A stretch of 64,000 nucleotides of DNA from Sorex araneus (lineage: Eukaryota; Chordata; Mammalia; Eulipotyphla; Soricidae): assembly GCF_027595985.1 (NCBI RefSeq), contig NC_073307.1, forward strand, positions 49,144,509-49,208,508, given 5' to 3'. Below are positions 9,174 through 52,100 of this stretch, piece after piece (position 1 is the stretch's first letter; every line of letters starts with the position of its first letter). The notes beneath the pieces are model-generated. The model did no database searches. It saw only the letters and a list, made by a program, of their open reading frames with translations, and was not told where the DNA came from. The translations under genes and the position numbers were made by a program.

Positions 9174-9194
9174 AAAAAAATTTTTTTTAATAAA

Positions 9195-29935: not shown

Positions 29936-30699
29936 AGTTTAGTTTTCAGTTACTCCTGTGTTCTGCTGGAGTTGCTACCAGATTGATGCAGGAGAGAGCA
30001 CGGAGAATAAAGCAAAACTGGCTGAATGGAAGCTTGTTTGACCTGATGCTCCAGGGCAGGGCTGGGCAGGTAGAAAGATTGTGGACTTCAAACCAATACC
30101 TCTTTAACAAACCCGACCCGGGAGGGTGGAATTGGTCTAACCTGGATTATGTACCAGATTCATGAAAGTCTCCAGACACTGGACGGACACTGGTCGGATA
30201 CTAGTCGTACTCATACTGCTTCATTTAAATGGGCAGTGGGCAGCTTAGAAACCCTCCCATAAAGAGCATCTCTATGGATACTGAGCTAGAGATCCAACCA
30301 GAGATGACCCTATGGGAAATCTGGATGATCATAAGAGAAATCTTGCAGTCCTACAGTTAAGACATGGCGCTTGCCCAACAGCTATGAACGTGCATTTCGT
30401 TTGCTTGTCATCGTTGTCAATCATTGCTGTCGTCTTCAAATAGAAGACAAAAATCTAAACTCGGAAACAATCGAATCCTGAGCTTTTTTCCAGGGGCGAA
30501 GGCGTTCTGTGCAGGGCACATAAGTCAGAATAATTCAGGTGCACCAAAACCTCCCCCTTTTCTCCAAAGCCAGACCAGGGGGTCCGCACTGCGGGGTGCC
30601 AAGCCTGAGCCCCGCTCCAAACCCAAAGGTTCAACCCCCAACCAATCGCCGTTTAGGGCCCCTTTAGAAACTCAGAAACAGCTACGGAAGATGAATGGC
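29936..30699. other. Unique upstream flank of the CHASERR CpG island
   Basis: Non-repetitive. The last SINE before the promoter ends at 29872. No exon recognised. Confidence 0.45.
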
Positions 30700-31700
30700 A
30701 CCAAGTTCGACCTATGGACGTAGAGCCAGAGGAGGGGGGTGGGGCCAGTGTTGGCCAATGGGACGGCAATAAGGCGGGAGGAAGCCGCCAGCGAGCGTGC
30801 GTGAAGGGGAGGGTTGGCAGGAAGCTCGCGCAGCCAATCGCCGCGGCGGGCGGGCGCCGGCGCGCGTGCGCGCTGGGCGCCCGGGCTGCAGGCGGGAGGC
30901 GGGGTGGGGGCGGGGAGCGGGCGGCCGCGCGGCGCGGAGCTGCCGCCGCCGCTGCTGCCGCCGCCGCCGCCGCAGCCGGCGCCGCAGAGCGGAGAGGCCA
31001 TGTTGTGTGGTGTGTGGGGCGGGGGGGAGGAGGAGGAGGGAGCGAAGCCGAGCGAGGAGACGGCGGGGAGACGGCACACACTCGGCACAAGATGGCCGGA
31101 GAGGCAGCAGCAGCCCGAGCTGTCAGGCGCGCCGCCGCGGCCTGGGGGCCCGCCGGGCGCTGCCGTGGCGCCGCCGGCTGAGGCGAGGCGGGCGCGGACG
31201 GCGGCGCCGGAGCTCGCGGCCGAGGTGGCCGGGCCGGGCCGGGCCCAGCGATGCCGCCAGCGGCGCGGCGGCCGCCGAGACGCTGGCCCCGGAGCCCGGG
31301 CGGCGCGGGAGTCGGGGCGGTCCCGGCGCGGGAGCGGGCGCCGGGCGACCCCGCGGGGCCGGCGGCCGCACTCGGACCCGGTGAGTGTCTCCCCGGCCCC
31401 TTTTATTGTCCTTTGTCCTTGGCGGCCCGGGCGAAATGTCCTTGAGCGCACGAGCAGGAGGGGGCGGCGGGCCGGGCCGTGCGGGGCGCCGTGCGGGCGG
31501 GCGGCGGGGGCGCGGGGACCCCGGTGCGGAGACCGCGGCGCGCGGGGCCGGCGGGGGCGGGGGGCGGCCTGGCCGCGGGCTTCGTTCCCGCCGGGAAAGG
31601 GGCGGCGGCGGCGCCACCGCGGGAGCCCGCAGCCGCCTTCGGCTCGGGGAGTTGAATACAGATATTTGGGGTGGAAGGAACGAACGAAAGGAAAATAACC
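30700..31700. promoter_or_regulatory. CHASERR: CpG island, CHASERR promoter
   Basis: About 1 kb of very GC- and CpG-dense sequence with no TATA box. Two CCAAT boxes lie at 30755-30759 and 30834-30838. An NRF1-like GCGCGTGCGC is at 30862-30871, and a GC box follows in 30900-30920. Two YY1-like sites in opposite orientation are at 30997-31004 (GCCATGTT) and 31089-31096 (AAGATGGC). A GCC-repeat patch lies at about 30941-30975. This is a standard housekeeping-type promoter. The assignment rests on its distance of about 16.6 kb upstream of the CHD2 promoter on the same strand, matching CHASERR in human and mouse. GC-driven open frames cross it on both strands and are not taken as coding. Confidence 0.85.
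31000..31380 (+). ncRNA. CHASERR: CHASERR first exon (5' limit uncertain)
   Basis: GC-rich first exon within the CpG island, ending in a strong donor: gacccg then GTGAGT at 31381. The YY1-like AAGATGGC at 31089 would lie inside the exon, a common arrangement for YY1 sites just downstream of a start site. Confidence 0.65.
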
Positions 31701-33709
31701 CTGGCAGACCCCCGCCCCCCCGGGTGCAGGTTCTCCTCCCTCTGCGGAGCGTTCCCGGGCAGGTGGGAGAAACTCCCGTCCCCAGGGTCGGTTTTCATGC
31801 AGAACAATGGCAGCCCCCGACCGCCTTGTCAACAACACTAACAAAAGAATAAAATTCGATTTCTTATTTTGGCCCGCCCCCACCCCTTTCCTAATTTTTT
31901 TTCTGCGGGGGCTTTGAACTCCTTGAAAGCCGATCTGCAGCGGGGGTGAGTGGGGACGGTGGTGGGGACCGGCTGCTGCTCTCAGACCTGGAGGACGGCG
32001 AGGGCTGGGTGGAAAAAGGCAAGTTTCGGGGGAGCCGCTGCTCGGCGGACATTGGAGGCGGTTTCGGGGACAGCGATGCTTGGACGAATGACGTTTGCAC
32101 GGAGCCAGTTTATTTTTTCCCTGAGCAAGATTTCGGGGTCTCTGTGTAACATTGTGGTATTTGAATAACAAGCAAATAAATATTTTTTTCGGTGGGGGGG
32201 GAGACTTTTGCAAAAGGTCACGGGGAGCCGTTATCTTCGGCTCTGAGCACACCTGAGTATGGCGAGGACGTCCTTGGGTCAGTTCCTTGGACTTTTTTAG
32301 AAGTTCCAATCCATCGATTCATCATCATCATTATTAAATAATTTACGCGTTACTCTCGCGCCCCGCAACTCCCCCCAAGGCCCCACTTGGACCCACCCGG
32401 GGCGAGCTCCCCGATCTCTTTTCCTTTGTGAAGTTACTTTTCCGGGAGGGTGGAAGCCTCGGAGCCGGCGAGGGCGAGAGGAGCCATATTTGTTGCATTT
32501 GTTCCATGCACGAAAAATCGCTGTGCCGAGGCCTTGCGCCCCCTCCGCAGCCAGCAGCCCCCTCGGGCTCGGGGCTCCGTACCCTCCGCAGCCCCAGTCG
32601 GGGTCTCCAGGCGCTCCGACTCCATTTGCTGGGGCGAGGAATGGAAAAGTTGAAACCCTGCGGGGCTCAGAGACGGGGAATGCGCAGAACCTTTTGTGTC
32701 CTTCCCTACTCTCCGCTTCCTTTGCCTTCGCGTGCGGTGGCTCTGGTGGCCAAGGTTGCAGGTCCTACCGTGAGGAAGCGTACTACATGTTTGGGAGGTG
32801 GAGGTAGGACTGAAAATCCAGGAGGGGGGCGACTGGATCTCCATATTTACGAGGGTGTTTTCGCAGGTTTAAAATATACAAAAAAAATTCAGGCAGGGCT
32901 ACACGGTCTAACAATTGCGCACATCTTCCCTTTAGCACAGCTTGGTCTTGAAAACCCATTTTGGGTCTGCAAAACTATAGAGTTTGGAATTTTCTGAGCC
33001 CTGGATATGGTATTAAGTGGCTATTTTGGATCCAGTTGCTGAGGGTCGTCTTTGAGGCACCGAAATTAAAAAATATAAAATACGTGCTCATGTATACATA
33101 TGAAGGATAGTTTAACCTCATTTTTTAATGAGGTGGGAAATTGGAGAAATAAAAATGTTGAGCATCTAGGTTTGAAAAATTAGGTAAAGGTCAGAGATAG
33201 TACATATTTTAGACTTTCTTAAAAGACAAAACTAATATACCACTTGGTGAGATCCGATAACTGTGGTTTAAGATTTTAACCAGTGGCCATTTTAGCTTCA
33301 CTAATTTCTCCTTGGAGGAGCTGAATTCTAATTGCTCATAATTTTGAAAGGTATTTATGGATAGTAAAGGGAATTTTTAAATGATTTTCTGTCTTTAAAG
33401 ATGGCTGAACTTTAGTGTATTGCTTAGCATTAAAGAAAAATAATATTTGCTCAGAGATCAGATTTTTCTATATTTTCAACTCCAGTGCATTAATTTCTAG
33501 TATTTGGCCATGCAACCAAAAGATGAAGAAAACAAAGACTGATAGGTATGAAGCAACAATCTTAGATGTACAGGTTATGCAGATGAGCCATCTCAAAATT
33601 GTCTCTAGATTTATGTATTTGGAATATTTCCTCATTGTTTCATCATACTGAAACTTTGGCCAAGAAATGTTTAAAAATCTAAACATTGACTTTTTTTTTT
33701 TTTTTTAAG
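31381..33709 (+). other. CHASERR first intron (candidate)
   Basis: CpG-rich until about 31.7 kb, then intermediate, then AT-rich from 33 kb. No SINE, L1 or microsatellite recognised. An inverted AAAATGGC lies at 33286-33293. Confidence 0.5.
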
Positions 33710-33769
33710 GAATTTACAAGATTAAAATAAATTTGGTTGATGTTTCTGAACAAATTCAGCCCTTTTGAG
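33710..33769 (+). ncRNA. CHASERR: Candidate internal CHASERR exon, 60 bases
   Basis: Bounded by a run of T ending in AAG (acceptor at 33708-33709) and by a near-perfect donor, GAG then GTAAGA at 33770. Non-repetitive. This is a splice-site prediction by eye. Exon use is inference. Confidence 0.38.
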
Positions 33770-36700
33770 GTAAGACTGGGTAAATTTCTTTTTGAACTAA
33801 AATAGGCTTAATAGGTGTTCATTTTCTTAGATTATATTTTCATAAGCAATGATTATGAAATTTCAGAGTGAATATTTAGAATAATTTAACAAATCTTTTA
33901 ATTCTCACAATTAAATGAACATTGCTTCTATAACTTAATGTATATTTTGAATATTTTAAAATACTGAAGGCCTTTAATCCTTTGTTTAATTTTGGGACAG
34001 AGTAAAGACATAAAGATACATTTTTTTCTTTTTATCTCACTGCTTACTAGATACTGTGCAAGCAGTTTTAACCGCTTAAATATTTAAGGGGAAAAATGGA
34101 AAACTTGGTAGGGTTGCTTATTCTGGTAAAAGCTTATAGATTTAGGTGAGAAAATAAAAAATCAGATTTTCTGAGAAATGCTAAATATAATTAGTTTTCC
34201 TTCTATGTAATGAAAAGTTTAAAATACATAGTTTTATGACTATGGGTTGTTTCATCGATAAATTAGGAATTTTTTTCTTGTCAAAAGGTATGCCATTTTG
34301 AAGACTGAGACTGGAATTTTATCTTTCAAAATAAAGAAAATCTGTGAAAATATTTTGTATAACAAGTAAGTAATGTTAATAAATGTTAATACAACATCTG
34401 AAATGTAATAGCTACCGACACCGACATTTAGATAGGAAAATCTAATCACCTCTAAAAATACTTATAAGTTTCGTCAGTTGAACATTGTATTTTTCTCCTC
34501 CAAAAATGAAGAAAAGCCCATTAAGCTTTGTTACTTATATCAAAACACTATGACATTACTATTAAAACATTTGATATATGTAGTTTATAGCAGAGGAATA
34601 AGACATTCAGTACTTCCCAGTAAAATGGCGTTTCAGAATGACGAGCAAGTCGAGTTGAGTCATCACAATGGCTTTCCATTATGAAATGGATGTATTTTTG
34701 GCTATTTTTATGGCACAGGCTACATTTTAGAAATGGCCTAGAATTTTACTTTTGTTGGTACTAGGATTCTTATATGAACTATATTTTAAAAAATAAACCT
34801 TTCACATTCTAGGTTATTAGTGAATTTAAAATATTTTGTCAATTTTTGAGTTTCACAAGGTAGAAAATGGATTTGTATATTTCTTAGTCATAAAAGGTAG
34901 AAATAACTTAATATTTATACATTTTGATCACTAGATGTGAGTGAAAAAAAGTACCAGTTTTTTGGAAATAGTCTTTATTGGTAGAGAAAATATGTAAAAA
35001 AAATTAAATTTACCTTAAAATGCTAAGGATACCTAATAGCCAATCGAGTTTTTAAAAGGACAAGTTTATCTGTATAAAATGTTTGTGGAAGATAGTCATC
35101 TATCTGTTGCTATTAGATTTATTTTTTTAACTAAAGTTTATGATAAAGGCAATTATTTTCCTTGCCATTGCTGGTAGGTAACTTTTTCCTTCTCAGTTTC
35201 TTTTCAGTCTGTCAAATTTGTGTTTACAGTTTGCAAAAGAAAATTACTAGGAAAAAAAAAAAAAGAAAATTACTAGACCTTAACACTAGTTTGAGAGATG
35301 GTGATGTATACAGCACAGTGAAAATATCTTTCAGCCTAAGCCAACTTAACAAGATGCTAAATAATAGACTGCTAGATTGGGATTCAGATGTATTTGGACA
35401 CGGTTAAAAATGCAGAATTCGGCTGCTTAAAATTCAAACATGTGAAGCATAGTATAAGCTTAAGTACAAATAGGCAATAAAATTATTACGGCCTACCAAA
35501 TAGTGTAATTTAATCCACGTAAATGGCTTGAAGGAGGCCAGAAATGTTAAAATGATTTTTATTCTGGTATCGTAATTAAGTTGTAAATGACCTGGTAACT
35601 TCAAAATTAAATCACTCTTGAATTGTTTACTGTATATCAGCAGCAAGATAATGGACCACAGTGAATTTCATTTTAAAGAAATCCTCATGCATGTAGACTT
35701 GCATAATAGTGCCTGTTTATGTTTACTATTTGGAAATTCACTATTTACTATTTGGAGATTCTTGTGCCAAGTCTGTAGAAGGGGCAGCATTTTTGTAGAC
35801 AAAATGTTATTTTTGAAATTGCGAGCGAATTTAAGGATCATTAAAGATCAGGTTGGTGGTTGAGTGGGATATTGTTAATAATTTTAATAATTATCTGAAG
35901 GAGACTGCCCCCATAATTAATTAGAAGTTTTTCATGAGCCTGACTGTGAAGGTTACATTATGTGAAGCCAGTTGTTTTGGATATGTTTTTTCTTTCAGGT
36001 TCAGTTGACTGTCCACTGAATTGTTTCTCAGTTACTAAAAAATTTAGACTGGACAACCAATTAATTTGCTTTCCTCCTTCAAGATTTTATTCTTTGTTGA
36101 AGCAGAAGGGGAAAATGATAATTTGGGGCCATCTCCATCTTGTGCATTAATGGGAAGTGTGTGATGGAGTGAAGAGAACTCAATGTATACTGCAGAAGAC
36201 CCAGCTTCTAATGTCAACTTCCCATGCTGGAGTCTTGATACTCATTTACTGTAGAGCTTAGTCCCCTAAAATATATAACATTTGTAAGTTTCCCTTCTCA
36301 TCTTTTTAATTGTAGTAAAGCCCATAGCAAGTTGCATCTTCTTTCTGCACAAACTGTAGAGACTAATTTTGTATATTACTGCATTGCGGATCATACATGT
36401 CACTGGGAAACTTTGGCATATTACCAAAACTCTGGTGTACCTGACTTTTATTTTGAGGCACTCCAGGTCAAATATTATATGGAGGCTGATACCCTGGAAT
36501 TAAAACAGTACAGGAGTAACATTGTTTCGATGAATTTAAGGTTTAGGGTGCTGCCTCAAAAGCATTTTTATTTTTGAAATTTAGAGAAAATCATTGCAAG
36601 TACTTAAGACAGCATATTTAACGTAACATTTTTTCTATTGGGATTGTAAAACTATTTATAGTTTATGTGCCTGGTGTGATCTATTTAACTTGCTTAAATG

Positions 36701-37783
36701 TTTTTCAAATATAAAAACACTTTGCCTTTCCAGGTGGAATAATTCACTACAGACTTAAAATTTTCAGATTAACTGTTATTTCTGATGTAATTAACCGTAA
36801 CAGTTTATATTCAAAGATATCCTGAACTTTATAAATGAAAAATATGTGTGACTTGATTATTTAATAACATTCTAATCGCACAGTTTGTATAGTAAGTTTT
36901 GGTTTCTGTATGCACATAGCTAGAATTATTTTGAATATCTTTTGCTTTTTGAAAGTAAACTGATATTGAGTATTTCTCAAGCAGGCAGTTATAACTTCAG
37001 TGTGTATTATGTAATAATAACCATTTAAATTTAGATTAGTTTAGATACATGGTTTAACTTGGTTTGTGATTTGTGCTAAGAATTTCATAAATTTGTGATT
37101 TTTGTCAATAATTTTTGTAGATTTGTATTACAGCAAATTTAGTCTTGAGTGTAAAAAAATTTTAAGGACATTAGAAGGTGACAAACCAGATACACAAGAT
37201 TATTAGCACAGATGAGCTAATAAAAGTCTAGACTGACGCCATTTTGAAAGGTGCAGCAATCAAAATGGCTACACTAATTGTTATTCATCACTCTTAAAAT
37301 TTCCAAATTAAGTATGAATTCATACTATTGCAGAATACGAGAGATAGGAATATGAGCAAAATTGAAACTGGTTTTTAATTTTCCTCTTGCAAATGGGAGG
37401 TAAAATAACTATTTTAGGCTTGGAGAAGTTGATATAGGATTTGTAGATTGACATTATTACTAAGATTTGTGGTTGTATAAATTGAGATCTGAATTCATTT
37501 CTGGTTTGGTGGATGGGAACCCATAAGCGCATTAGTATCTTTTTAATAAGCATTTTAGCAGATCAACATGTGAAGAATTTCCTCTAGGCTTTTGTTTCAG
37601 CATTTCAGTATTTGAGTCAGTTGTACCCATTGAGATTAAATCAATTACCTTTAAGATTCATCTTTGTGTTCAATGTCAGATTATGTTTGGGAAGCTTTAA
37701 ATTTCTTCATAATTTGAGAAGAGGATATTTCAGCATTTTACTTTTTATTTTTGGTGTAGCAAGAAAGATTTTATTGAAACTTG
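33770..37783. other. AT-rich, repeat-poor CHASERR intronic sequence
   Basis: No SINE or L1. It holds AAAATGGC elements at 34292-34299 (minus), 34622-34629 (plus), 37238-37245 (minus) and 37262-37269 (plus). It also holds a 16-base direct repeat around an A-run at 35235-35276 and a possible acceptor ending at 35999. Confidence 0.55.
37238..37269. promoter_or_regulatory. Perfect 10-base inverted repeat of the AAAATGGC element
   Basis: GCCATTTTGA at 37238-37247 and TCAAAATGGC at 37260-37269 are exact reverse complements, 12 bases apart. On DNA this is a pair of divergent YY1-like sites. On RNA transcribed across it, it would fold as a 10-bp hairpin. Confidence 0.6.
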
Positions 37784-37938
37784 TTTAGAGGACTCAGAGT
37801 ACTGCAGGTAGAGTGCTTGCTACCTTGCACGCAAGCAACCTGGCTTGATTTCCATCACCCTTTATGGTCCCCGAGCCTGCCAGGAGTGATCTCAGTACTG
37901 CTGTTGTGGCCCAAAAAGAAAAATAAAAACAAAAGAAA
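37784..37938 (+). mobile_element. Older SINE
   Basis: cagagtactgcaggtagagt head, tggcttgatttccatcac, tgttgtggcccaaaaag tail. First SINE after a 7.9 kb gap. Confidence 0.82.
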
Positions 37939-37968
37939 CATTTCAGAAAGGTGTGAAGGGAGGGGAGC

Positions 37969-37978
37969 AAGATGGCGG
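37969..37978 (+). promoter_or_regulatory. YY1-like site AAGATGGCGG
   Basis: Exact match to the classical YY1 core AAGATGGCGG, just downstream of the SINE tail and in unique sequence. Confidence 0.5.
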
Positions 37979-38954
37979 GAGAAATACATGTTGGAGAGAG
38001 AACACAGGCTTTTCCAGAATGGAAATAGGCAAGCAGAAAAACATCGAGATAAGCCAGTGAGATCTGTGTTCAAGGGAGAATGTGGGCTTGGAGAGTGAGC
38101 CAACTTTTGACTGTCAGAGGTCATTGTAAAGAGATCTCTGCTGTATTGTGATCAGGTTTTTAAGCTACAAAAGGACTTTATATTTGTTAAGATAGTACAG
38201 AATTTGCTATGTAATCTGAAAACTTGAAACCTAGTAATTGAGAAGCGTTTAGTTGGCTTAATAATAGCTTAAATTATATTTTGCTTTTCAGAACTCCTGA
38301 AATTGTTGATCTTTAAATTGAAATTTTAGGGAGCTTTTTTTCAGAACCTCTACATACATGCCCTTGGGGTCATATGTTTCAGAGCAGGAATGACTAATGA
38401 AAGCACAGTACTGTATGAGTGCTTGAGATACGAAAGCTTTTCCCTGTGCAATTTTTAGAGGTTTTTTCAGCCTAATAAGTGAGAGCATGTTGCTTCTGTT
38501 ACCAAGTAGGTACTAATTTAGGAAGGATTTTGCTGAGTGTAGGTCAATCAGTTCAGTACAGTAATAAAAGTGATTTGATGGAATCAATAGAGTAGGGGGC
38601 CATTGACTTGTTTGTGGTGGAATGGGGTTCATTTGTATGGTTCTTCGAGGGAGTGGCATGGAAACTGCCTCCCTCCGTAGTTTGACATTTTCTCTTAAAA
38701 TGGTGTTGATTGAGGTATATGGTATGAGTTATGAAGAGTTGAAAATAATGGCCTTGCAGGTCAGTGATGGAGGGTTTAGAAATCTGGAAAGTATATTAGG
38801 TGGAAGGACGAAGATGTAATTCTGTCTGCTGTATTAAATGTTTTTCTTGTGTTCTGGTTGCCAAGTAGATTCACCTAAGAATCCCAGAGAATATCCCAAA
38901 AGAATCCATTTTGTTGGAGTTATTTAGGACTGAGGCTTAGGAATATTTTTGCCC
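37979..38954. other. Unique intronic sequence
   Basis: No repeat recognised and no exon called. An AAAATGG (AARATGR) occurs at 38697-38703. Confidence 0.4.
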
Positions 38955-39080
38955 TGCAGTAGGTTTTTGAACTACATCCTGCACTACTCAGGGAAATGCC
39001 TGACGGTGCTCAGGGGGACTGACCATCCACTACAGTGGGAACCTGGCCCTTCTGCGTAGGTCCTCAGCCCTTTTGGCAAC
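38955..39080 (-). mobile_element. Degenerate SINE
   Basis: gaaatgcctgacggtgctca and ggggactgaccatcc. Confidence 0.5.
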
Positions 39081-39103
39081 CTCCCCAGCCGTTATGAGTT
39101 TTT

Positions 39104-39268
39104 AAATTTTGTTTTGTTTGTCGTTTTGGGGCTACAACCGGCACTACTCTGGGCTTATACTTGGCTTTGCATTTAGGGATACTGCTGGGTGTGGGCAAAC
39201 AGGGATATCATCTAGGTCAGCTACATGCAAGGCAGGTGTCCTATCCACTGTTACATCTCTTAGGCCCC
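39104..39268 (-). mobile_element. Older SINE
   Basis: tcgttttggggctacaacc, gctacatgcaaggcaggtg, tctcttaggcccc. Confidence 0.75.
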
Positions 39269-39559
39269 GCTTTTGTTACTTTTTTTTTTTTTTAGGGGGT
39301 GTGATCCTTAAGTGTTTTTGTATAGATAAGTAAATCTCATCTGTAGCTAGTTTAAAAATTCTTTAAGATCAGATTTAAGAACAGATTAGTTTTGCCGTCT
39401 TATTTTCTGCTTGGAAGATGGTCATAGCTCATAAATATGCATGTCTCTTGGTGGTTGGATGAGTAATCCTTATAAACTACAATAAAGTGTCATAGTTTCC
39501 AAATAAATCATGGCATTTTAATAATCTGTTAATCATTTTTTTTTTTTTGCTTTCTTCAG

Positions 39560-39626
39560 GGATGTGGAACCTGAATTCTTAAAGGGCCCGCCCGTACACC
39601 CTGATAGGTGTTGGTGGAAGCACTTA
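39560..39626 (+). ncRNA. CHASERR: Candidate internal CHASERR exon, 67 bases
   Basis: A long T-run and gctttcttcag form a textbook acceptor ending at 39559. CACTTA then GTAAGT at 39627 is a strong donor. The enclosed sequence is unique and markedly more GC-rich (aaagggcccgcccgtacacc) than its AT-rich surroundings. This is the best internal exon candidate in the locus. Use in CHASERR is inference. Confidence 0.48.
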
Positions 39627-39721
39627 GTAAGTTTTATTCAATTTTCATGTTTAATACATTTTTTATTTTTGAGTATGACTGGAAAGTTTGAGTAAATAGA
39701 ATTGTGAAAAAATAGAGGGAT

Positions 39722-39895
39722 TGGTTAGGGAGAGAGCCCAAAGGAGTTGGGGCACATGTTGTACATGTGGGGTACCCAGGTTCGATGGCTGGCATCATGG
39801 GGTATTCTGAGCAAGGATTGGAACTTTGCTGCCCTGTCCCCCAACCTGAGCATAACCTATACCCTAATTGGATCGAGTGAGCCAAAGAGAGAAAA
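39722..39895 (+). mobile_element. Older SINE
   Basis: gttagggagagagcccaaag head and caggttcgatggctggcatc B-box region. Confidence 0.7.
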
Positions 39896-40028
39896 TGGTA
39901 TATTGTGAAACTCAAAGCAGAAATAAGTCAACCAGGTTATACCTGAGTGAATTTTTACTCATTTACTCATATTTCTAGTTTTTCACACTGAAACTCAGGC
40001 AAAATTAAATGCAAAGAAATTCACATTT

Positions 40029-40425
40029 TTGGGGCTGAAGTGGTAGTACAGGGGGAAGGTGCTTGCCTTGCATGAAGCTGACCTGGGTTCAGTCCTTTTT
40101 TTTTATTACTATTATTATTATTAATCCCAACCGCATGGCTTGGAACACTTTTTTTTTTCTTGGGTCACACCCAGCGATGATACACAGGGATTACTCCTGG
40201 CTCTACACTCAGGAATTACCCCTGGCGGTGCTCAGGGGACCATATGGGATGCTGGGAATTGAACCTGGGTCGGCTGCGTGCAAGGCAAATGCCCTGTCTG
40301 CTGTGCTATTGCTCTAGCCCCCCTGGGTTAAATCCTTGATACCTTATATAATCTCCCAAGCCCTCCAGGAGTAAGCCCTGACCACCCCTGGGTGGACCTT
40401 CTGCCTACCTCCCAAAGAAAAATCC
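40029..40425 (+). mobile_element. Older SINE split by a later insertion
   Basis: The 5' part at 40029-40096 (ggggctgaagtggtagtac through cctgggttcagtcc) continues at 40323-40425 (ctgggttaaatccttg through ggagtaagccctgacc). ctgggttcagtcc and ctgggttaaatcc are the target duplications of the insert. Confidence 0.85.
40149..40322 (-). mobile_element. SINE nested in an older SINE
   Basis: tcttgggtcacacccagcg, gaattgaacctgggtcgg, gctattgctctagcccc. The 50 bases between the host and its poly-T (ttattactattattatt and cgcatggcttgg) are probably part of the inserted tail. Confidence 0.9.
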
Positions 40426-42353
40426 AGATTTTAATGTTTCTAATACTTAATTTCAGTTTTGAGTGTTGATCTATTTCCCCCATCTTTGTAAATAAAGTTT
40501 TATTGAAACACAACTATTCTCTTCCATTTTATCTATGCTTTTACAGTTGTGGAATTGAGAATAGTTTGTAGCTAATGGTCACCAAAATGAAAATATTTAG
40601 TCTTAATCCTGTTTGGAAAGCTCACTTATCCTTGCCTAGGTCCATTCCTTTTAGTCAGGTTTACCTTTTCCTGTGTTAGAACCAAAGCTTTTAAGATTCT
40701 CTTACAGAGCTAGAACACACTTCATTGGATTTTAATCTTGTAATTCTAATTAGATAATGGCAAACTTCAATTTGAAAGCCCAACAAAATGTTCTTTGCAT
40801 ATTTGAATTTTGCTTTGAAATCGGATTCTTGAAATGGAATAGTTTTTCTAATTCCTACCTAGAGGAAAGTAGTTGGGAAGAGCTAGTGCTAATACTCAAG
40901 AAATGGATTTGGCTGGATTTTCAAACGGTTTTATTTTTGACTGAATTTTTCTTCCTTTTTAGATATGATTACATGCTGTTTTATAAGAATTATTTTAAAA
41001 TTACAGTTGGGAATCCTGTTAATTTTTAATTCTACTTATTACTTAAACTTATGATGTATAAATGGCTACTTAGGCCTGCTCAGCATAAAATTATTTATTT
41101 TTACATGGGATTGAGAGTGCAGAGATGAAATGTAACACAAAAATTGACTGTCTTTCAGAGATTTCCTGGTGCATAGTGAATGTTCACTATTTGTTGATTA
41201 ACCAACTGCTGTTTCACACTAATGGAATTTACTAGCAAAATGTGATATGCTTTAAATATTAACTTTTTCGTATGACTAGTTAAAATGTAATAAAAGTTAT
41301 GGATAAACTACTAAATTTTAATTTTTTAAACACCTCTAGTCAAGTTTTCACCCTAATTGGGGAAATGGGATTTACTTTTAAAACCTTAATTCTTTTTTTA
41401 ATTACTGTAATTGATTTTATTAATCTTATTCTCATAGTGATAAGTAACTTTTTTAAGTCATTTTACAGTTTTTGTACATTTGTTGGGGACTGCTTCTGGC
41501 TCTGTTTTCAGAGCTTCATTTGGATCCAACCTCCCATGTGCACAGCATAGCGCTCCTCTAGTTGAGCTTGCTCTTTAGCTTGGCTATTAGATTTTTATTT
41601 CTAATTTATTTAGAATCCAAGTTTGATATTTTGTAATCATTTTGAGCATTCAACTTCTGTTTGGTCCTAAGACAAACACATGAATTCTCACAAGTAAATA
41701 TTTTAAAATTTAAAGATGAAAATTGGTAAGCACTAAAAATCTTGATACATTCAGGACCAGATAGGCTTCTGTTCTGAATTGCAATTCTTTGATTTTGCAA
41801 TAAATATCTAAAAATAATATAGATTACATAATTCCAAAATTATAGCACTAAAAGCACCTATTTTAAAAATGGTAATCAGGAAATTTTACTTTCCCAGATT
41901 TATTTGTTGCTGTTAGAAAAGGAGTTTGCTAGGAAGTTAAGATAACAGAGTGTACCCTCTTAAACCCAAACCAGATCACTCATTCTCTTGCTTTCAGCTG
42001 ACAGATTACTTGGTCTTAAAAAGTCCCAATGTTCTTTAGTGGATTTACGGAATTAGAATTTCAGAGAAGCCTGCTGTACTGCAAACTATTGTTTCCAGAA
42101 CTTTTGGGTGTAGATATTTGGGCATTTGAAGAGTTGTTACTCATTACCTTCTATAATCTTTACCTTTGCTTGTTGAATTGTTTTAGAACAAGCAGATTTA
42201 CTTTAAGCGGATGTGAATAAATACCACGATGGAAAATTTCTAACATTTCATATTGTGAACATAACATACACAAAAGATCCTATTTATTTAATGATGAAAT
42301 TCTACATTAAATCTTTATCTTCTGATCTATTTTAGCTTATAAATGATTAGAGT
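40426..42353. other. AT-rich unique intronic sequence
   Basis: About 1.9 kb without recognised repeats or exons. Confidence 0.4.
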
Positions 42354-42525
42354 GTGGCCCAAAGCGGTAGTACAGCACTTAGGGCATTTGCCTTGCTTAC
42401 TGCTGATCCCGGTTCCATCTCTAGCATCCTGTATGGTTCCCCGAATCACATCCACCAAGAATAATTCCTCAATGCCAGGAGTAAGCCCTGAGCACTGCAT
42501 GATGTAGCCCCACTCTCACATTCTC
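42354..42525 (+). mobile_element. Older SINE
   Basis: gtggcccaaagcggtagtac head, gatcccggttccatctctag, ggagtaagccctgagcact. Confidence 0.82.
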
Positions 42526-43067
42526 CCGCCCACCTCCTGTTCCCCACTCCCAGCCCAGCAATAACTAGAGACTAGAGTTATCATGTAGGCTCTGATAGTC
42601 TAAACATGCTCACGTGTACTTATTTTAATGTAGACTACATTGTGTTTTAGAGCAGAAATGGTCTATTAATTAATTGACCTTCTGATTCTATGAATTCTTC
42701 AGAGATATATTGGAACATAAATTATTTGTTAAAGTAAGGCTACTTTATAGGTCTTCAATTTCTTTGGTTATTGAGATTATTGAGGGAAAGCAGTTGATAT
42801 TTATTGAGGTCTTCCTCTATGCCATGTAAATGTACATATTCTAAATTAATTCTCACTACTACCCCATGAGGTAGGTACTGCTACTATTTGTTTCATAGGT
42901 GAAGTGAGGGACTGTAGATTTTGTTAACAAGAAAATATTCAGGCTCACAATGGCCTTGTGCTTTTTTTGTTAACACATTTGAGAAATTGCTTATTTAATT
43001 CCTGTAAGAATGTGCAATTTGTAATAAATAATGTGTTACTCATAAATCTCTCCCCAGTCTTTAGATC

Positions 43068-43248
43068 CTTTTTTTTTTTTTTTTTGCTTTTTTGTGTCAC
43101 ACCTGGCGATGCACAGGGGTTACTCCTGGCTCTGCACTCAGGAATTACCCTTGGCCGTGCTCAGGGGACCATATGGGATGCTGGGATTTGAACCCGGGTC
43201 GGCCGCGTGCAAGGCAAATGCCCTACCCGCTGTGCTATCTCTCCAGCC
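43068..43248 (-). mobile_element. Young SINE
   Basis: Near-consensus copy. ccccagtctttagat before (about 43053) and after (43246) is its target duplication. Confidence 0.96.
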
Positions 43249-43262
43249 CCAGTCTTTAGATT

Positions 43263-43977
43263 CTTGACTGGGTACATTTGCTTATTAACAAAATTCTCAC
43301 TTAGTCTTTAATTCACTTAGAATTATAGATTTAGCATGGATTGGTTATGGCTTTAAAGCCTCATAGTTACTTGATTTCATGTGTCATTGTAACTACCATC
43401 TTGCATATATTGACAATGTATGTCAATAGGTATTGACCAATCAGCATGTGTTTCTGATCCTATTTTGCACCTAGTACATTTTATTAACTTCAGAATGATT
43501 CTAATAGAATGACTAATATTAACGAAGGTTTTCTTTTGGCGTTTTTTGAAAGTAACCAGTGGTTTTAAGAAGAAATATTATACAATATACTGGATAAATT
43601 TTGCCTTTTGTTCTTGTTTTGGAAGATTATAAACCAGTGAGTTTATTATTAATTGAACCATCACCATTGATGTAACCTGATGTCAGTACATTGATTTCAT
43701 TGTTTATCATCATATTTACATCTACATTTAGGACTTGGTCATCTAGCATTAGTGATTGAAGAGAAATTGATTACTTACTAATACATTTGCAAGATGGAAG
43801 ATATTTTACTGATGATGTGAAATGTATGAGTTACTTGATTTTCCTTTATAGGCTGAATAGAAATTGGCAAACACAAAGGAAAATATTTTGGCATTTGAAT
43901 TTAATTGCCAATATTGTGACTTATTTTCAGTTAAAGCTAGAAGCTGGGGTCTGTGTCTTGGTTACCTAAATAATTTT
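43263..43977. other. AT-rich unique sequence
   Basis: No repeat or exon recognised. Confidence 0.35.
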
Positions 43978-44172
43978 TTTTTTTTTAACATTTCGGGTCA
44001 CACTTGGCGATGCTCAGGGGTTACTCCTGGCTCTGTACTCTGTACTCAGGACTCTGTACTCAAGAATTATTCCTGGCGGTGCTTGCGGCCCATGCAGGAT
44101 GCCGGGGATTGAATCCCAGTTGACTGCATGCAAGGCAAATTGCCCTACCCTCTGTACTGTCATTCCAGCCCT
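43978..44172 (-). mobile_element. SINE with a duplicated ctctgtactc segment
   Basis: catttcgggtcacacttgg start and a triple ctctgtactc in the middle. Target duplications are ggttacctaaataattt (about 43960) and the same at 44173. Last SINE before an 8.7 kb gap around the CHD2 promoter. Confidence 0.93.
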
Positions 44173-45048
44173 GGTTACCTAAATAATTTAATTAAATAGA
44201 CTTCCATGTTACAGATAGGCCCCAATTTTTAACTTCTTAGAATGCAAGCAAATGTGCCCAATAAGCAAATATGACCTTATCAGTAACAATGACTTAGATT
44301 TTTCTATGAATTTAGTTTGAGGAATGCAAAATTTAAATAAGTAAGACCAGTGTCAACACTTAATTTCATGGTGTGTCTGTCAGTGGAAAAATCTGGCTCT
44401 CCTTTTTACCCATTGAGTTCATAATATTAAAGTGGTGACTTTCTTTTTCTATGAGTAAAATTTGTTATTTTACTGTTTATTTTATTGCTGTTTGAAATTT
44501 GGTGATTCTCAGTGACAAACGTCAAAGCAGGCAGATAATTTGTTTTATTGATTTTTTAAAAAATAAGTACTTATATTTCTGCACTTTTCCACAAGTAGCT
44601 AGAGATTGTGGGAGCTTTGTTTGTCAATAGTTATTGAAGCAGAAGGAATCTCTTTTGGGTAGGAAAACCATCCTATCATTCTTCCCTTTAAGACAGGGTC
44701 TCATGATTAGCTCTATTTGAAGAAGCATGGGAAATTTAAGATTTCAGCTTTGGAACATATATATAGTTTAGTTTCGTTTGTTTTAAGAATTTTGTTTGAT
44801 TTTATTTATGGAGTCCGTGCACTAACTGGACTACTAAGATTTCATCTTTTGCCTGTCATTTTGGTATGGTTTCATATGGATCAGTGACAGCAGAACTTGG
44901 TAACTCTGGCCTACACACAACTGGAATATTGTGTGGAGTGCATGTACTGCTTTTATGTTATAAAGTTCCATAGTTTAAAGCTGTTACATAATTAAAATGT
45001 TGTGTAGGGTAAGGGTATCTTCAAGGTGGGTGGATGTTCTGTTTGCAG
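44173..45048. other. AT-rich unique sequence upstream of the terminal exon
   Basis: No repeats recognised. It ends in the acceptor gttctgtttgcag at 45036-45048. Confidence 0.45.
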
Positions 45049-45470
45049 AAATAAGATGATTGGTATTCCAACAGCATTTTTTTCTTTTAATGTTTTCATC
45101 AAGCACCCAGTCAGCTTGAAGAGTCTCAAATGGACCCTACCACTGAGAAACCAAGATGGCAGCCCACTGTGGGGGATTGAGGAAAATGGATTAAAACAAG
45201 AGTGCTGTGATAATATGCAACCCAGACAGGGTTCTTTTTGCATGGAGCTGATGAAATGAATGAAGACATAGGTTTCTTACAAGTGGACAGTGCATTTGAT
45301 TTTCTAAAGACTTTGTATCATTAAAACAAGTACATTTTTGACATTTGGAGAAGATGATAAATTTTCACAGATGATAGTCTGTATACCTGCAATATTTTGT
45401 GGTTTGACTTGTATGAGTTTGACCTTGTGGAATGTTAACTTGAATAAAATTTCTAATACTTAAAAGTTTC
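45049..45470 (+). ncRNA. CHASERR: CHASERR last exon (candidate), polyadenylated
   Basis: The acceptor gttctgtttgcag ends at 45048. Downstream, AATAAA at 45443-45448 gives a 3' end near 45460-45475. The exon contains four matches to AARATGR, at 45053-45059, 45153-45159, 45183-45189 and 45351-45357, against roughly 0.1 expected by chance in 420 bases. Comparative work on CHASERR described repeated AARAUGR/AUGG elements in its last exon that bind the helicase DHX36, so these copies are the strongest sequence argument for orthology. An alternative acceptor (ttttcatcaag, ending 45110) would shorten the exon and drop the first motif. Confidence 0.72.
45443..45448 (+). terminator. CHASERR: Polyadenylation signal AATAAA
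   Basis: Canonical hexamer inside cttgaataaaatttc, about 2.2 kb upstream of the CHD2 promoter. Confidence 0.75.
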
Positions 45471-45475
45471 TTAGT

Positions 45476-47599
45476 TTTGGCTTTTTTTTCCAAGCTGAAG
45501 TTTTATTAACTACTAAGTTATCACCTTAATATTTTCACCTTGACGATTGCCTGGCAGTAAAATTTACTGAATAAAACTGGTAAAATGAAAATGGTGTGCT
45601 GGAAATGTTTTACTTGGTTGATTAAGATGTCTTTCTTTTTTTTTTACACAAAGGTGTGGAAATTTATTTGCTTCAAATGGGATTGCTTGGTTAAGATGCT
45701 GCTTTGTGAAACACTACAAAGAAATCAATGAATAATAATAGAATCTTTAATTTGCCATGATATTAATGAAATTTTTTAACAAAGTAAGCTTTTGCTTTAC
45801 AGTGACAATGGTTCTAGTCTTTGAGTTTTGTATTGATGGGAAAGATTCCTTTGAACTATGTTTTAAATGTTAAGCATAAAATAATCTTAAAATAGTTATT
45901 ACTCAGAACATTTAAATTGAACTGATCTGTTCTATTTTAATAGTTAATATTAAGGAAAGTGTTTTTGAATTTATAGAGATGTGTTTGTAGGACAAAATAA
46001 TTTTGGCGGTAGTGTTTAATAATTTCATGTAAATGTGAAATAGGATTATTAGGGCATTTTCCCCTTACTCTATACCATTTGGAGTTAAAGTAGAGGAATT
46101 GTATCATGTCATGACTCGTTTGAATTCAAGGTGAAAATTGGAATTTTATTTATTGCAGATCAACTAGTACCTATTTCAGTAAATTAAAAAAGATATGGTA
46201 GACTTTTCATAGGCAAGTAAATTTATTTTACTCGCCGTGTTAGAAGGAACAAGAAGTCGAACATGAATACGTTTTGGGGGTTGGTGGTAAACAATTTTGC
46301 TTTTAGTATTAATGCCAAATACCAGTGTGTTGAGTGTATGAACCGTGTTGAGTGCTTGGAAGGATTCTCTTTGAGCCTCTTTAGTCTGTTTAAATCAAAA
46401 GTAGAATTTTGATTTTGATACACAATTCTTGGGTAGAAAGTGTAGAATTGAAACTGGGTTTCAGTTATGGATATATTTCCCCGGCTGCATTATTGCTTTT
46501 GTTTGGTTTTACTTTAAAATGTATGTCTTGGAAGGTTAGAGTTGTGGAATATTATGGTGTTGAGTAAGGAACGTTGATTTGTTTGATTTGCTTTGGATGT
46601 CTAAATATTTTTGTGGCGTGTTTGTTGGGAGAAAAAAAGTAGATTAATTTGTGTGTGTGGCCTTTCCCCCCCTTGATAGTGACGATTATATAGATGTTAC
46701 AGTTTGGATATTTAGGAGAATTTGCCTTGTGAAATGTGATACGTCGCCATCAGATCTTACTAGCTATTAATTTGCCGTTATTGACATGAATATGTACACC
46801 CTGACATATGAATGATGGCTTGGGTATATATGTATGTTGTGTCGGTTTTGAAATGGGGGCCTGTGGTTGGTTATTTAAAAGGTGATCATGATGCTTCCGT
46901 ATCCCTGAATTGGAATAATTATGTTTTGCCTGAATCTGTGGAAAGAAAATTTACTGTTTATGAATTTATATTTTTGCAAAGCTGTGTAATGGGTTAAGGT
47001 ATTTTGTGAATGAAGAAAAATCGAGATTCTTGAATTAAAACCAGTTGTGTGCATTTTTGCGCTAATGCAAGTGAACACTAGGGAGGCGCTCTTGAGTTGT
47101 CCCCCTCCCCCCCTTTCCATTTGGGATGGAAAATCCCCCCATAAAATTAGCCTTCCATTAATTTTTAGGCTTCATAAGGAAGGCAAGATTTGAATTTAAT
47201 TTACGAAATTCAGCTTTTGCTTTCATTTGGGGACCATTTTTACCCATGGGGGGTCATATATTTAAAGGATTAGTATTTAAGCTGGGCTTTCCATTCCCCA
47301 AGAATTATCCCTTTTTCAAAATGGCTTGATAAAACACTACTTCCTGTCCAGAGAGGAAGTTATTTTAGCTCAAGGACTGTAATATTTAGCAGATCTTTAG
47401 ACAAAAGGAACAAATTACATTTGTCTCTGGCTTAAAAAGGGTGCTGGTGCCAGAGGGGGTTAAGAAACCCTCCCCCCTCCCTCTGATGGGGTGGTCTGGA
47501 GGGGCAGGGAGGTGTGGGGGTGGGGGTCCTCAGGCTTCCTGGGATGGAGGATCTTTTTTTTTTTTTTGGTTGAGATGAAGGGGTGGGTCTATGGTACAT
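45476..47599. other. CHASERR-CHD2 intergenic spacer
   Basis: AT-rich, no SINE or LINE. It contains AAAATGGC at 47318-47325, C-runs near 47100, and a T-run at about 47553. The long repeat-free stretch next to a dosage-sensitive promoter suggests conserved regulatory content, which alignment would test. Confidence 0.5.
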
Positions 47600-47760
47600 C
47601 ACCTGAGTTGTGGGGTAAATGTAGAGAGTGTCAATCAAAGGCAGAGCTCAGAGCTGGGAAGGAGGCTCTAGATGGCGGCGGTGCCTTAGAGAGCGCGCGC
47701 TCAGCTGCCTGCCTTCCCCTCACTTTACGCAACTTTCCCTAACTTTCAGGCTGCCTCAGG
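47600..47760 (+). promoter_or_regulatory. CHD2: CHD2 core promoter region
   Basis: TATA-less, with a small CpG-containing core (gatggcggcggtgcc, then gagagcgcgcgctcag). A YY1-like GATGGCGGCGG lies at 47671-47681. The start site is placed at or just after this motif by analogy with YY1-initiator promoters. That placement is inference. Confidence 0.65.
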
Positions 47761-47922
47761 GGGCCCCCGCAGCCCCCTGCCTCTCCTAGCGACTTCCTGG
47801 GGTCGATTTGAGCCTTTTTTTGGGGAGAAAAGCAGCTTTTAGGAGCTTGCTTTGCGAGCCTTGTTGGAAAGCAGCAGCCGTGCTGAGAGCCCAGGTCGTT
47901 GTTTTTTCCCAGCTTAGAAGCC

Positions 47923-47955
47923 ATGGCGCACCTCCATTTTTGTACGCTCTCCTAA
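47923..47955 (+). other. uORF 1 in CHD2 5'UTR, 10 codons plus stop
   Basis: Encodes MAHLHFCTLS then TAA. The ATG has a near-ideal Kozak context (gccATGG), so most scanning ribosomes would be expected to initiate here if the exon 1 start is correct. Confidence 0.55.
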
Positions 47956-48032
47956 TGAGGTTTTTTTTTATCTTCCGGACCCGTTTTAGTATTAATTGTT
48001 GCTTTGTTTTTTTGGCCGCTGGACACACTTGA
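47955..48032 (+). other. uORF 2 in CHD2 5'UTR, 25 codons plus stop
   Basis: Its ATG overlaps the stop of uORF 1 (TAATG), an arrangement that can allow termination-reinitiation. It encodes an F-rich peptide beginning MRFFFIF. Confidence 0.5.
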
Positions 48033-48152
48033 GTCTTTTTATTTATTTTTGGGTTTTTTTTTTGTTTTTAACGGAGAAATTTGTTTTTATTTTTGATCGT
48101 TTGGGATCTATTTTTTTCTTGCTAGCTAGGACTCTGGCTTTGGACCTACTAC

Positions 48153-48502
48153 ATGGATCAGGTAAGTTCATGCACAATCGTGATCATTTGAAAGATTTAT
48201 ATGTTTAAGTTAGCTTTATTTTTTGTGAATAGAAAAAATTACTGGATGACGCAATAATATAGATTGTTATTTGTATCCAGTGTGTTACTTTGAGAAACTT
48301 TCCTTATTGATAGTGATGATTATCCCTGTTTGGTTTATCCCTTTTTTTTTTTTAAGGAAAATTAGTAATATGTTGGGATTTTTGAGGTGCTTACCGTTGT
48401 TGTATTATAACAATATCGTTACATTGCCAGGACTTCGTTCCTGTTAATAAAAACCATCGCTAGAAGCTGGGACCTTACCTTTCTTTCAACTTTTGACAGT
48501 AA
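48153..48502 (+). other. uORF 3, completed only by splicing (three codons)
   Basis: ATG-GAT-CAG are the last nine bases of exon 1 (48153-48161). The first three bases of exon 2 (48500-48502) are TAA. The spliced leader therefore holds a minimal Met-Asp-Gln-stop ORF about 68 bases upstream of the main start codon. Confidence 0.55.
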
Positions 48503-48570
48503 ATACCTGGGCACAGGACTTCAAAGCAAACACAGATTCCCCCTTCCCCTTAATATTTAAGAATTAAAAG
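48500..48570 (+). other. CHD2: CHD2 exon 2, 5'UTR part
   Basis: The acceptor cttttgacag ends at 48499 after a pyrimidine-rich tract. The 71 untranslated bases contain no ATG. Confidence 0.8.
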
Positions 48571-48632
48571 ATGATGAGAAATAAGGACAAAAGCCAAGAG
48601 GAGGACAGTTCGCTCCACAGCAATGCTTCGAG
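48571..48632 (+). CDS. CHD2: CHD2 coding exon 1 (start codon), chromatin remodeller N-terminus
   Basis: CHD2 is a nuclear ATP-dependent chromatin remodeller of the chromodomain-helicase-DNA-binding family, working on nucleosomes in transcription and DNA repair. This exon encodes MMRNKDKSQEEDSSLHSNAS plus two bases of the next Ser codon. It matches the mammalian CHD2 N-terminus as I know it, apart from any difference I cannot check. The start is the first of two adjacent ATGs, both with A at -3. The donor is TCGAG then GTATGA at 48633, phase 2. The residues before the chromodomains are acidic and serine-rich and are expected to be disordered. The next exon lies 12.45 kb away. Confidence 0.96.
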
Positions 48633-50949
48633 GTATGAGCTATCAACTTTCTTCCTTTTTTCCTTTATTTTTGGGGAAACCTCAGCCTACATTGTTTACC
48701 GGAACAGACCTGGAGAGCTGTCTGCTTTATTTTTAAGAATTTGACTAATTAGGATTCAGTTTTTAAAGCGTGACCTTGAGATTGCTAATATGCCACACCC
48801 TAATTTTTTGGTAGCAATTTATGAAAGTTGAGTTGTGACTTAAGGCCTCTCAGAGCAGTCACAAGGTAAGGGACCTTTATTCAAGGGGGTCTTCCTCGTA
48901 AGCTGCCGTGTTTCTCTCAATAAACTTCAGATTGGAGGTTTTTGTTCTCTAGAAAAATGACCTTGTCGGTTTAGCCATTGCTGCATTGCACCATTTTACA
49001 TACAAGGCAGATTTTTTTCTTTGAAGAATCTCGGATACCCGAACTTGTAACTGAAGGCCAGAGAGGAGCCTTGTAGTAAATTATAGTAAATAGACATTTG
49101 AGAAAGTTATATGAATGAAAAAATGGGCATTTTCAGATGAAACTGCAAAACGGACCCCTTGAATGATAGCCTTCAGTTTATAATTTTATTTGCCTCTCCG
49201 TTTCCATGGGTGCTCTGACATTTTTAGAGATTTTGAGAGGATTTATGAAAACCTTTGCTTGATGGTTAGTTTCTGCATTTATAAAATCAAGCCTGGGATC
49301 CCGGAAATTCTGAGAATGAAACTTAGTATATACTTTTGTATTTATTACTGTGCTTGTTACAATTGTATATTTTATTTCGTATTTGAAATATAAGATTTCC
49401 AGCTGTATGCTTATATTTAGACAGTGCTTTCTCGTTGGGCTATAGTTTTTTTAATCCTTGCATTTTAGCCTTAGTTCCTTTAAATTCATGGTTTTATTTC
49501 AATAGTCGCATGGAATGCTTTATCTTCTGAAGCTTATAAATGTATTCTTTATTTAAATCGTGTTCTCACATTTGTTGCAGTATCTTAGTGACTAAGTAAT
49601 AAAGGCTTTTAGACATTTTGCTGTATGATTTGTATATTTAAAAAGAATACATTTCTTGATGTGTATTATGAATTGTGACGAATTCATGAAGCTAACAAGG
49701 ATGTGATTGGTTATGACTTTTAAATCATTTACTTTTGTAATTTTATGCAAATAACATTTTCATTAGGGAATTTAAAACTTTTGAATATGACTTTTTTTCC
49801 AAGTAGGTGACTTTGATGTTTTACTACTTTAAAAAAATATTTGATCCTTGTTTTTTAATGTGTATATTTTGCAAATGAAATTGTTTCATAGACAAGTCTT
49901 TTGAACTGGGTAGCCCATTCTGTAAATTGTCTTGGTTAGATTTTGGATAGAAAATTTTTAATCCTGAACTATTGAATTATTTTTTTCCCTGAAGAAAATG
50001 GGCTATTTGTAGAAATAGGAATCCCCACGTAAATTTCAACCTTTTATTAAGATTCAGTGCCTAAAATTCATTCCCTACCCCTCCTTCCCCCCCTCTGTGA
50101 TTTGCATAGTTTCACGTGGGTTTTGATTTTCTTATGTAAGTTTTGTGGTTAAACTCTGCTTTCTAATTTAAAAGAGTCAAGTAGCACTGCTATTCATTTC
50201 CTAATGTCCTGTTACCTGGAAAAACACTTTGAAGGGTTTGTGGGGGTGAGAGATGTCACTGTTCAGCAAGTAGCTATGCATGGTACTTTCAAAGGGGTTT
50301 CCGTCTTTGTTTTGAGACCTACCTGATGAATGTCCAGAAATATTGAGGCTCTTGGAAGAGTGTTTTTTTTTTTTTAAATTTCTCCAAATTTACCGCAGGT
50401 ACATAATTGTGACATCACTTCCTTGGAAAGTTGGAAAGCTGAAGAGGTGGTCAGTTTCTCCTGTAGAGCTGTTTTGTGGCAAACTAAGCTTAAGTCCACT
50501 GGACCCCAGAGTAGTCTTGGTTTTTGCTTCCTGAGTACCTCTCGGCTTCCCCTGAGGCCCAAGTTCCTATGGCAAAATGTTTCGTGTGGGGGGGAAGCTG
50601 CAGGAGCACCTTTGAGCCCCGGGGGAGGGAGGGAGGAGTCTAGGAATCTTTGGTCTGAGAAACTGGGATCCATCTGGAAGGACTGCTTGCAAGCAATGCG
50701 GTTCCTCGGGTTGTTTCCATCGAATTCGTTACTCTTGTATCCTTTCCAGCTCGCCACTTATACTATACTCGTTTGTTACACTTTTGTGTTGCACTTTGCT
50801 TCAAAGCTTCCTCCAAAAAGCTACAGTTAAAAAGTTCCTCCCCAAAGCTACAATGGAAAGACATTTGATCCTAGACAACTTTTCCAGTGATACAAAGCAG
50901 AGTCAGTGGTGGTCCTGGGCTGCCCTGTCTCTGCCCCGTGTTTGGAATG

Positions 50950-52100
50950 ACTGGCCCTTGCAAGTGACTTCAGTGCTGTCACCAGAAGGAAGCCAGGAGG
51001 GAAGGGGCTGGGAAACGGGAGCTGGTCGCCCCCCAGTTCTGTGAGTCCCTGTGCTGCATGGTGCCAGTTCAAGCACTGAAATGTTGATGAAATTGATTGC
51101 AAAGCGACTGTCCTGGAACTAGATTTATTTGCTGCCCCCAGCTGCGGGTACCTCGCCGTCCCACCCCGTGCCTGGCTCCCCCGGGAGGCTGGGGGCCGCA
51201 GACACGCGCGGTGCACTCGCTCGTGGCCCAGAACTGGCCGCTTTGGAGGTGGCAGCCATTTTATAACGCTGCTGAGGCTAAATAGGGATTTTTTTGTTTG
51301 TTTTGGAGACCGAAAAGAAAGAGACTCGAGCCCTAAAATGCCCTCCCTCCTACCCCTACTCGCACTGCCCCGGGTGGGCGCCCTGCCCCAGCAGGCAGGG
51401 GCCGTTTGGGCGCCGGCGCGGGCGCCAGCTCGGGAGCCCCCGGCAGCTTGGTGCGGGGCCAGCTCAGTCACAAAATGGCTGTTCTTTGTGCCGCAGCGCT
51501 GACAGACATACTGCATTGCACTGTGGACTCGCCGAGCAGCAGGAAGTTGCCGTGCCGAGTTCAAAGGGCGGCCGGCGCCGGCGCCGCGCGCTCATTGGCC
51601 GCCGACGCGCCTGGTAACAGCGAGTCAGCGGCGCCGGCCTCCCCTACTGGCCCCGCCCCGTGACGTCAGCCGGCGCGCCGCGGGCTGTGAGGGCGGGCGT
51701 GGCGCGCGCCGTGACGTGGGGTCTGGAGACGTCGCGGCTAGGAGCCCGGGGAGGGGGAGGGAGCTACAGCGCCGCGGCACCGCCGCCAGCCTGGTCGGGA
51801 CTTTTCCGCTGGGCCGCGCCCTGCTCCGGGCCCGGCTTTTCTCTGCTTGAGAAAGTTAAAAAGACATCTATCCGCAGCCCTGCCAGTTTTACTGCATTGT
51901 CTCTGCTTTGCGGTCTGCCCCGCTGCCTTCCCCTCGTTGTAGTTTGCCCGCCCCGGCAATGTAATTCATGACCCCGGAGCCCAGGGAAGAGTACCTGAGC
52001 CTGTCCCGTGCCTCTTAACGTGGTATCAAGTCCTTTCCCCCTTGACATTTGAAGGAGAAAGATGCAGGTCCGTAGCGTGCAGAGGGTCGTGGGGCCGAGG
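50950..52100. promoter_or_regulatory. Second CpG island, inside CHD2 intron 2
   Basis: GC- and CpG-dense, strongest at 51.38-51.85 kb. It carries an inverted CCAAT box (ATTGG, 51594-51598), a perfect palindromic CRE TGACGTCA (51661-51668), a half-CRE TGACGTGG (51712-51719), and AAAATGGC elements in both orientations (51255-51262 minus, 51472-51479 plus). No CHD2 exon is recognised here. It could be an alternative or antisense promoter, or an intronic enhancer. Orientation is not decided by sequence. Long GC-rich minus-strand frames across it are not convincing. Confidence 0.65.

Follow-up and report, generated by a model that had tools for sequence, protein, structure and literature searches.

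Is the CpG island some 16.6 kb upstream of the CHD2 promoter in the shrew Sorex araneus part of the same gene as a candidate polyadenylated exon near 45.47 kb, and could that gene, CHASERR, restrain CHD2? The earlier note on the window (the whole stretch of 64,000 nucleotides analysed here, to which all positions refer) had paired the two elements as a CHASERR-CHD2 tandem by eye. The identification of the locus as such a tandem is strongly supported by orthology to published oligonucleotides, a five-exon model, conserved RNA elements and a spliced retrocopy found elsewhere in the genome. We consider it very probable that a CHASERR orthologue lies ~2.2 kb upstream of CHD2, in tandem with it, and would repress it in cis as a negative-feedback brake, by extrapolation from work in mouse and human.

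Orthology to human and mouse CHASERR

Orthology was assessed by mapping to the window the oligonucleotides printed in PMC6841665 (mouse 3'RACE and 4C primers) and PMC7718957 (human primers, shRNAs and ChIRP probes), i.e. by short sequences rather than by an end-to-end alignment. Each of 32 oligonucleotides was compared with 60 shuffled versions of itself on the real window; the P3 pair, which its paper uses as a distant control, had no good site and was excluded from this test. Ten of the 32 scored better than all 60 of their own shuffles, with sites at both ends of the gene (promoter and exon 1; last exon) and in the CHD2 promoter, and the significant sites follow the order expected of the gene along the locus. 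At the 5' end, the + strand matches are P1F (exact, at 31001, just upstream of exon 1), the human full-length forward primer (exact, at 31092), P1R (31108, 1 mismatch) and pGL3 R (31117, 2 mismatches). The last exon is matched, also on the + strand, by the human qPCR oligonucleotide q600R (exact, at 45104), a mouse RACE oligonucleotide (45110, 5/26 mismatches), the mouse inner 3'RACE oligonucleotide (45138, 1/25 mismatches) and the human ChIRP probe 5 (45152, 3 mismatches), and the two mouse Chd2-promoter 4C primers fall at 47400 (1/24 mismatches) and 47427 (2/24 mismatches), again on the + strand. Sequence similarity to both human and mouse CHASERR is thereby established at the level of oligonucleotide matches, and the island at 31 kb and the exon at 45 kb can be assigned to this gene, as the earlier note had proposed.

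For comparison, nine unrelated control oligonucleotides from PMC7718957 have best + strand sites with 3 to 8 mismatches, the best of them being NFKBIB F (3 mismatches at 17538). The shRNA-1 target (33736) and ChIRP11 (45729) were each equalled by 1 of their 60 shuffles, and 20 of the 32 oligonucleotides had no significant site in the window by the same test. Most human oligonucleotides for NR_037601 and NR_037602, for the far promoter (P2, pGL3 forward) or for the distal 3' part lacked a significant site there; ChIRP8 (best site 45408) and ChIRP7 (tied best site 45331) fall in the last exon and did not beat their shuffles. A scan of the whole window against Rfam reported no family reaching its gathering score.

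Exon model of CHASERR

The predicted promoter of CHASERR is a CpG island at 30551-32200 (GC 0.70, CpG observed/expected 0.99, 195 CpG). Exon 1 (31089-31380, + strand), covered by the human primers, probably starts near 31089-31092, with the YY1-type motif AAGATGGC at its start, and ends at the donor GACCCG/GTGAGT at 31381, which ranks in the top 0.28% of GT sites in the window according to a simple matrix. The donor noted earlier within the island is thus corroborated; this and all other splice-site ranks come from simple matrices built on consensus frequencies.

In the model, three internal exons (2, 3 and 4) are added to the two elements of the earlier reading. Exon 2 (33710-33769, + strand) contains the human shRNA-1 target with 4/21 mismatches and is flanked by an acceptor in the top 0.09% and a donor in the top 0.31%. 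Exon 3 (34288-34365, + strand), the 5' edge of which is set by the model and the acceptor of which ranks at 2.8%, has 15 bases identical to the human ChIRP probe 3 and is present in the retrocopy. Among 13 human queries, some of them overlapping, that were compared with the intronic region, these two (sh1 and ChIRP3) exceeded their 20 shuffles. The search of the intronic region with human queries did not recover exon 4 (39560-39626, + strand), which was called because of the quality of its splice sites (acceptor in the top 0.05%, the strongest of the model; donor 5.1%) and because the retrocopy spans the exon together with both of its junctions.

The last exon (45104-45464, + strand) is supported by q600R, the mouse RACE oligonucleotides, a junction of the retrocopy and motif counts, and its 3' end is predicted from the AATAAA signal at 45443-45448 (+ strand), the conserved CHASERR poly(A) signal (PMC7798263); a polyadenylated terminal exon close to 45.47 kb is therefore retained from the earlier note. 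Its acceptor had previously been placed at 45049. The matrix scores of 45049 and 45104 are close (1.1 and 2.3; top 10.2% and 6.5%, respectively, the latter being the weakest splice site of the model), and it is the retrocopy, joining exon 4 directly to 45104, that decides for the latter, so that 45049 was discarded.

According to PMC10705407, a four-intron human CHASERR isoform has all of its splice sites well supported in a 470-genome alignment, and a six-exon isoform of 1787 nt is given as the major form in colon cancer (PMC7718957). Since the ChIRP11 site falls past the modelled 3' end, and in view of that six-exon isoform, longer forms or forms with extra exons may exist in the shrew as well. 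A 62-codon ORF that begins in exon 1 has its stop in exon 2, ahead of the junctions that follow; the comparable mouse ORF, likely to trigger NMD, has 117 codons (PMC6841665). A start-proximal 29-codon ORF (31092-31181) begins with ATGGCCGG in a YY1/TISU-like context and recalls the short 5' ORF of Cyrano (PMC7798263).

A spliced retrocopy of CHASERR

Two queries, first the last exon and afterwards the spliced model, were run against the host genome (G000), which comprises 65 contigs totalling 2.41 Gb and carries the window on contig C6; this search scores the best candidates only, and further diverged copies may be missed. Besides the native exons it revealed one further strong match, 95% identical, on contig C12 (G000:C12:326546526-326546901; L003:4526-4901). 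The C12 copy corresponds to 34296-34365, 39560-39626 and 45104-45341, is intronless and is joined at the predicted exon ends; its alignment stops at 45341 and is followed by five bases and then by 13 A. We interpret it as a processed copy, truncated at its 5' end, of a CHASERR RNA that had been spliced and polyadenylated, which implies that germline transcripts of this kind, with exons 3-4-5 joined, existed in this lineage. The spliced and polyadenylated RNA is thus attested indirectly, by a genomic copy of exons 3-5 with an A-run; exons 1 and 2 are absent from it, so that joins 3-4 and 4-5 of the five-exon architecture are recorded in the genome and junctions 1-2 and 2-3 are those of the model.

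The window also contains ATTAAA at 45320-45325 (+ strand), apparently the poly(A) signal used by the source transcript. Because the A-run of the copy begins ~21 nt past the end of this hexamer, and the window itself has no A-run at that place, the copy suggests an upstream poly(A) site after ATTAAA. The end of the copy could also be explained by loss of an internal segment extending to the AATAAA site, a reading that the same ~21 nt spacing makes less likely.

Processed pseudogenes are made by LINE-1. The C12 copy resembles them in its joined exons without introns, its 5' truncation and its 3' A-run, and differs from them in its origin from a lncRNA instead of an mRNA and in that no clear target-site duplication surrounds it (the longest shared word is 6 nt). 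Exon 2 alone, used as a genome query, found only its native copy, and a weak match on contig C1 (72% identity over the GC-rich exon 1) was set aside as probably compositional. No report of a CHASERR retrocopy was found in the open-access papers searched.

The retrocopy also bears on the alternative that island and exon have nothing to do with each other, the former yielding a chance transcript and the latter carrying a fortuitous polyadenylation signal upstream of CHD2. The two elements are 14 kb apart with no link visible by eye, and exon 1 is missing from the retrocopy; however, exact or near-exact matches to human and mouse CHASERR oligonucleotides are found at both ends in the correct order, and a spliced copy of exons 3-5 contradicts a chance pairing. 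We regard this alternative as extremely improbable, and treat the two elements below as the ends of one CHASERR gene.

The CHD2 side

The CHD2 exons were located with a human CHD2 peptide as query. Coding exons 3 (61085-61316, + strand; tblastn E-value 3e-38) and 4 (63628-63714, + strand; 3e-14) have AG/GT edges in the sequence, and exon 2 (48500-48632, + strand; MMRNKDKSQEEDSSLHSNAS) carries the ATG at 48571. The noncoding exon 1 (47668-48161, + strand) has an approximate start and a donor at 48162 in the top 0.03%, and sits after a conserved block at 47400-47450 (+ strand), the target of the mouse 4C primers. These observations agree with the placement of CHD2 exon 1 and its promoter near 47.68 kb in the earlier note, with a start that we infer at ~47668. 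The tandem arrangement on the + strand (CHASERR poly(A) signal at 45443, probable CHD2 start ~47668) and the spacing of about 16.6 kb between the promoters (31089 to 47668) follow, both as the note had described them.

A second CpG island (51051-52100, GC 0.64, CpG observed/expected 0.86) lies ~4 kb inside CHD2 and contains a CRE-like TGACGTCA at 51661 and ATTGG (reverse CCAAT) at 51594; it looks like an internal promoter. Human MIR3175 lies near the corresponding position. As to the wider sequence context, the AT-rich block 33000-50000 (GC ~0.28-0.40), which takes in the CHASERR introns as well as the CHD2 start, is set between GC-richer flanks, and the kilobase of the CHD2 promoter within it has a GC content of 0.47. 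The window contains tRNA-Ala-like SINEs, in keeping with a shrew origin, and, at 7632-9208 on the minus strand, open frames that resemble, as judged by eye, the C-terminal part of L1 ORF2. An interspersed repeat at 37930-38140, which contains AAGATGGCGG (the best 40 of 1015 candidate matches were scored), resembles an L1 5' end.

RNA elements of the last exon

Two k-mers, AAUAAA and AAGAUG, are kept in all CHASERR sequences from 16 vertebrates, and the related motif AAAUGGA occurs in 11 of the 16 (PMC7798263). The shrew last exon has AAUAAA as well as AAGATG at 45153 and 45351 (2 versus 0.32 expected, P-value 0.036) and AAATGGA at 45128 and 45184 (2 versus 0.11 expected, P-value 0.006), and plain ATGG is not enriched in this exon (4 versus 2.26, P-value 0.18). 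Association of CHASERR with DHX36 and an increase of Chd2 upon treatment with the antisense oligonucleotides ASO1 and ASO3, directed against the last-exon elements, are described for mouse cells (PMC7798263). By analogy, the CHASERR RNA, or its transcription, would repress CHD2 in cis in this animal too, as a negative-feedback brake of the kind indicated by the mouse and human experiments, and the AARAUGR elements of the last exon, for which DHX36 association is described in mouse cells, may contribute to that brake.

Strand skew of the CHASERR-CHD2 gap

The gap between the genes (45465-47660, + strand, 2.2 kb) has no SINE-like hit. With SINE-like copies masked, the excess of G over C on the plus strand sets in at the CHASERR start: the GC skew rises from 0.012 before the island to 0.108 over the CHASERR intron region, peaks at 0.262 in the gap and falls to 0.058 within the 5' part of CHD2. 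A skew as strong as that of the gap, in either direction, was reached by 1.3% of 154 overlapping 2.2 kb background windows taken from 20 sampled 10-kb stretches, in a test made post hoc. The skew fits long-term plus-strand transcription that includes read-through of the gap, and together with the retrocopy it is the main addition of this analysis.

This observation raises the possibility that the gene is indeed CHASERR while the brake is transcription itself, with read-through of the 2.2 kb gap disturbing the CHD2 promoter and the RNA sequence playing a minor role. The skew of the gap, the strongest of the four regions, would fit such read-through in the germ line over long times, and PMC6841665 concludes that what is needed is either the RNA itself or the act of transcribing the locus. 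Against it, the last-exon elements are kept and enriched, and ASO1 and ASO3, targeted to these very elements, act on Chd2 in mouse cells (PMC7798263); the skew test, moreover, is a post hoc comparison of overlapping windows. We therefore judge a purely transcriptional brake unlikely, albeit the most serious competitor, and prefer a brake to which the CHASERR RNA contributes.

YY1-type motifs

Between 31089 and 47680 the motif AAGATGGC occurs four times on the + strand and never on the - strand, against 0.08 expected from a genome sample, a post hoc test in which the genome rate is given by 2 hits in 200 kb sampled. Shuffles of the window expect 1.45 copies on the + strand of the whole window, where 4 are seen, which makes the excess less striking. 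The copy at 37969 was set aside, as it lies inside an interspersed repeat. In human, YY1 binds the CHASERR promoter, with a site at -4 of the start (PMC7718957); the YY1 passages found in PMC7798263 concern the Cyrano lncRNA, and in PMC12644095 the mention found is an entry of the reference list.

One could speculate that the locus acts partly as DNA, AAGATGGC at the CHASERR start and in the last exon and TAGATGGC at the CHD2 start being putative YY1 sites that tether the two promoters. The one-sided excess of AAGATGGC and the YY1 binding reported for the human promoter speak for this idea, yet one of the four copies belongs to a repeat, the sampled rate depends on two hits, the contrast with the shuffles is far weaker and the test was post hoc; we find it improbable. 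We give equally little credence to a composite reading in which the deeply conserved AAGAUGG of the last exon would have two roles in the same bases, one in the RNA and one as a YY1-type DNA site (AAGATGGC) like those at the CHASERR and CHD2 starts, and the brake would combine RNA action, promoter tethering and read-through of the strongly skewed gap.

Conservation and comparison with known systems

The tandem order, the exon structure and parts of the sequence of CHASERR are conserved throughout vertebrates (PMC6841665; PMC7798263). The proposal of the earlier note that the arrangement existed in the common ancestor with Eulipotyphla is hence true, but trivial, being far shallower than the published conservation; the interpretation, though correct, is not new, since the locus is known and deeply conserved. 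Its value is modest, and consists of a full CHASERR exon model for this genome and of the retrocopy, which serves as a naturally made cDNA of the last three exons. Because loss of Chaserr in mice is lethal soon after birth (PMC6841665) and CHASERR deletion in people is associated with a neurological disorder (PMC10705407), every clean orthologue helps to narrow down the RNA elements that are important.

With human CHASERR/LINC01578 and mouse Chaserr/1810026B05Rik the shrew gene shares the strand, the tandem order with CHD2, the five-exon model, the sequence of exon 1 and of the last exon, and the last-exon elements AAGAUG, AAAUGGA and AAUAAA. The distance from the CHASERR end to the CHD2 start is 2.2 kb, as in mouse (PMC6841665), whereas the last exon spans ~361 nt, compared with ~500 bp after the last 3' splice site of mouse Chaserr (PMC6841665). 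The shrew locus differs from its human and mouse counterparts by the spliced retrocopy in the same genome and by the apparent upstream poly(A) site.
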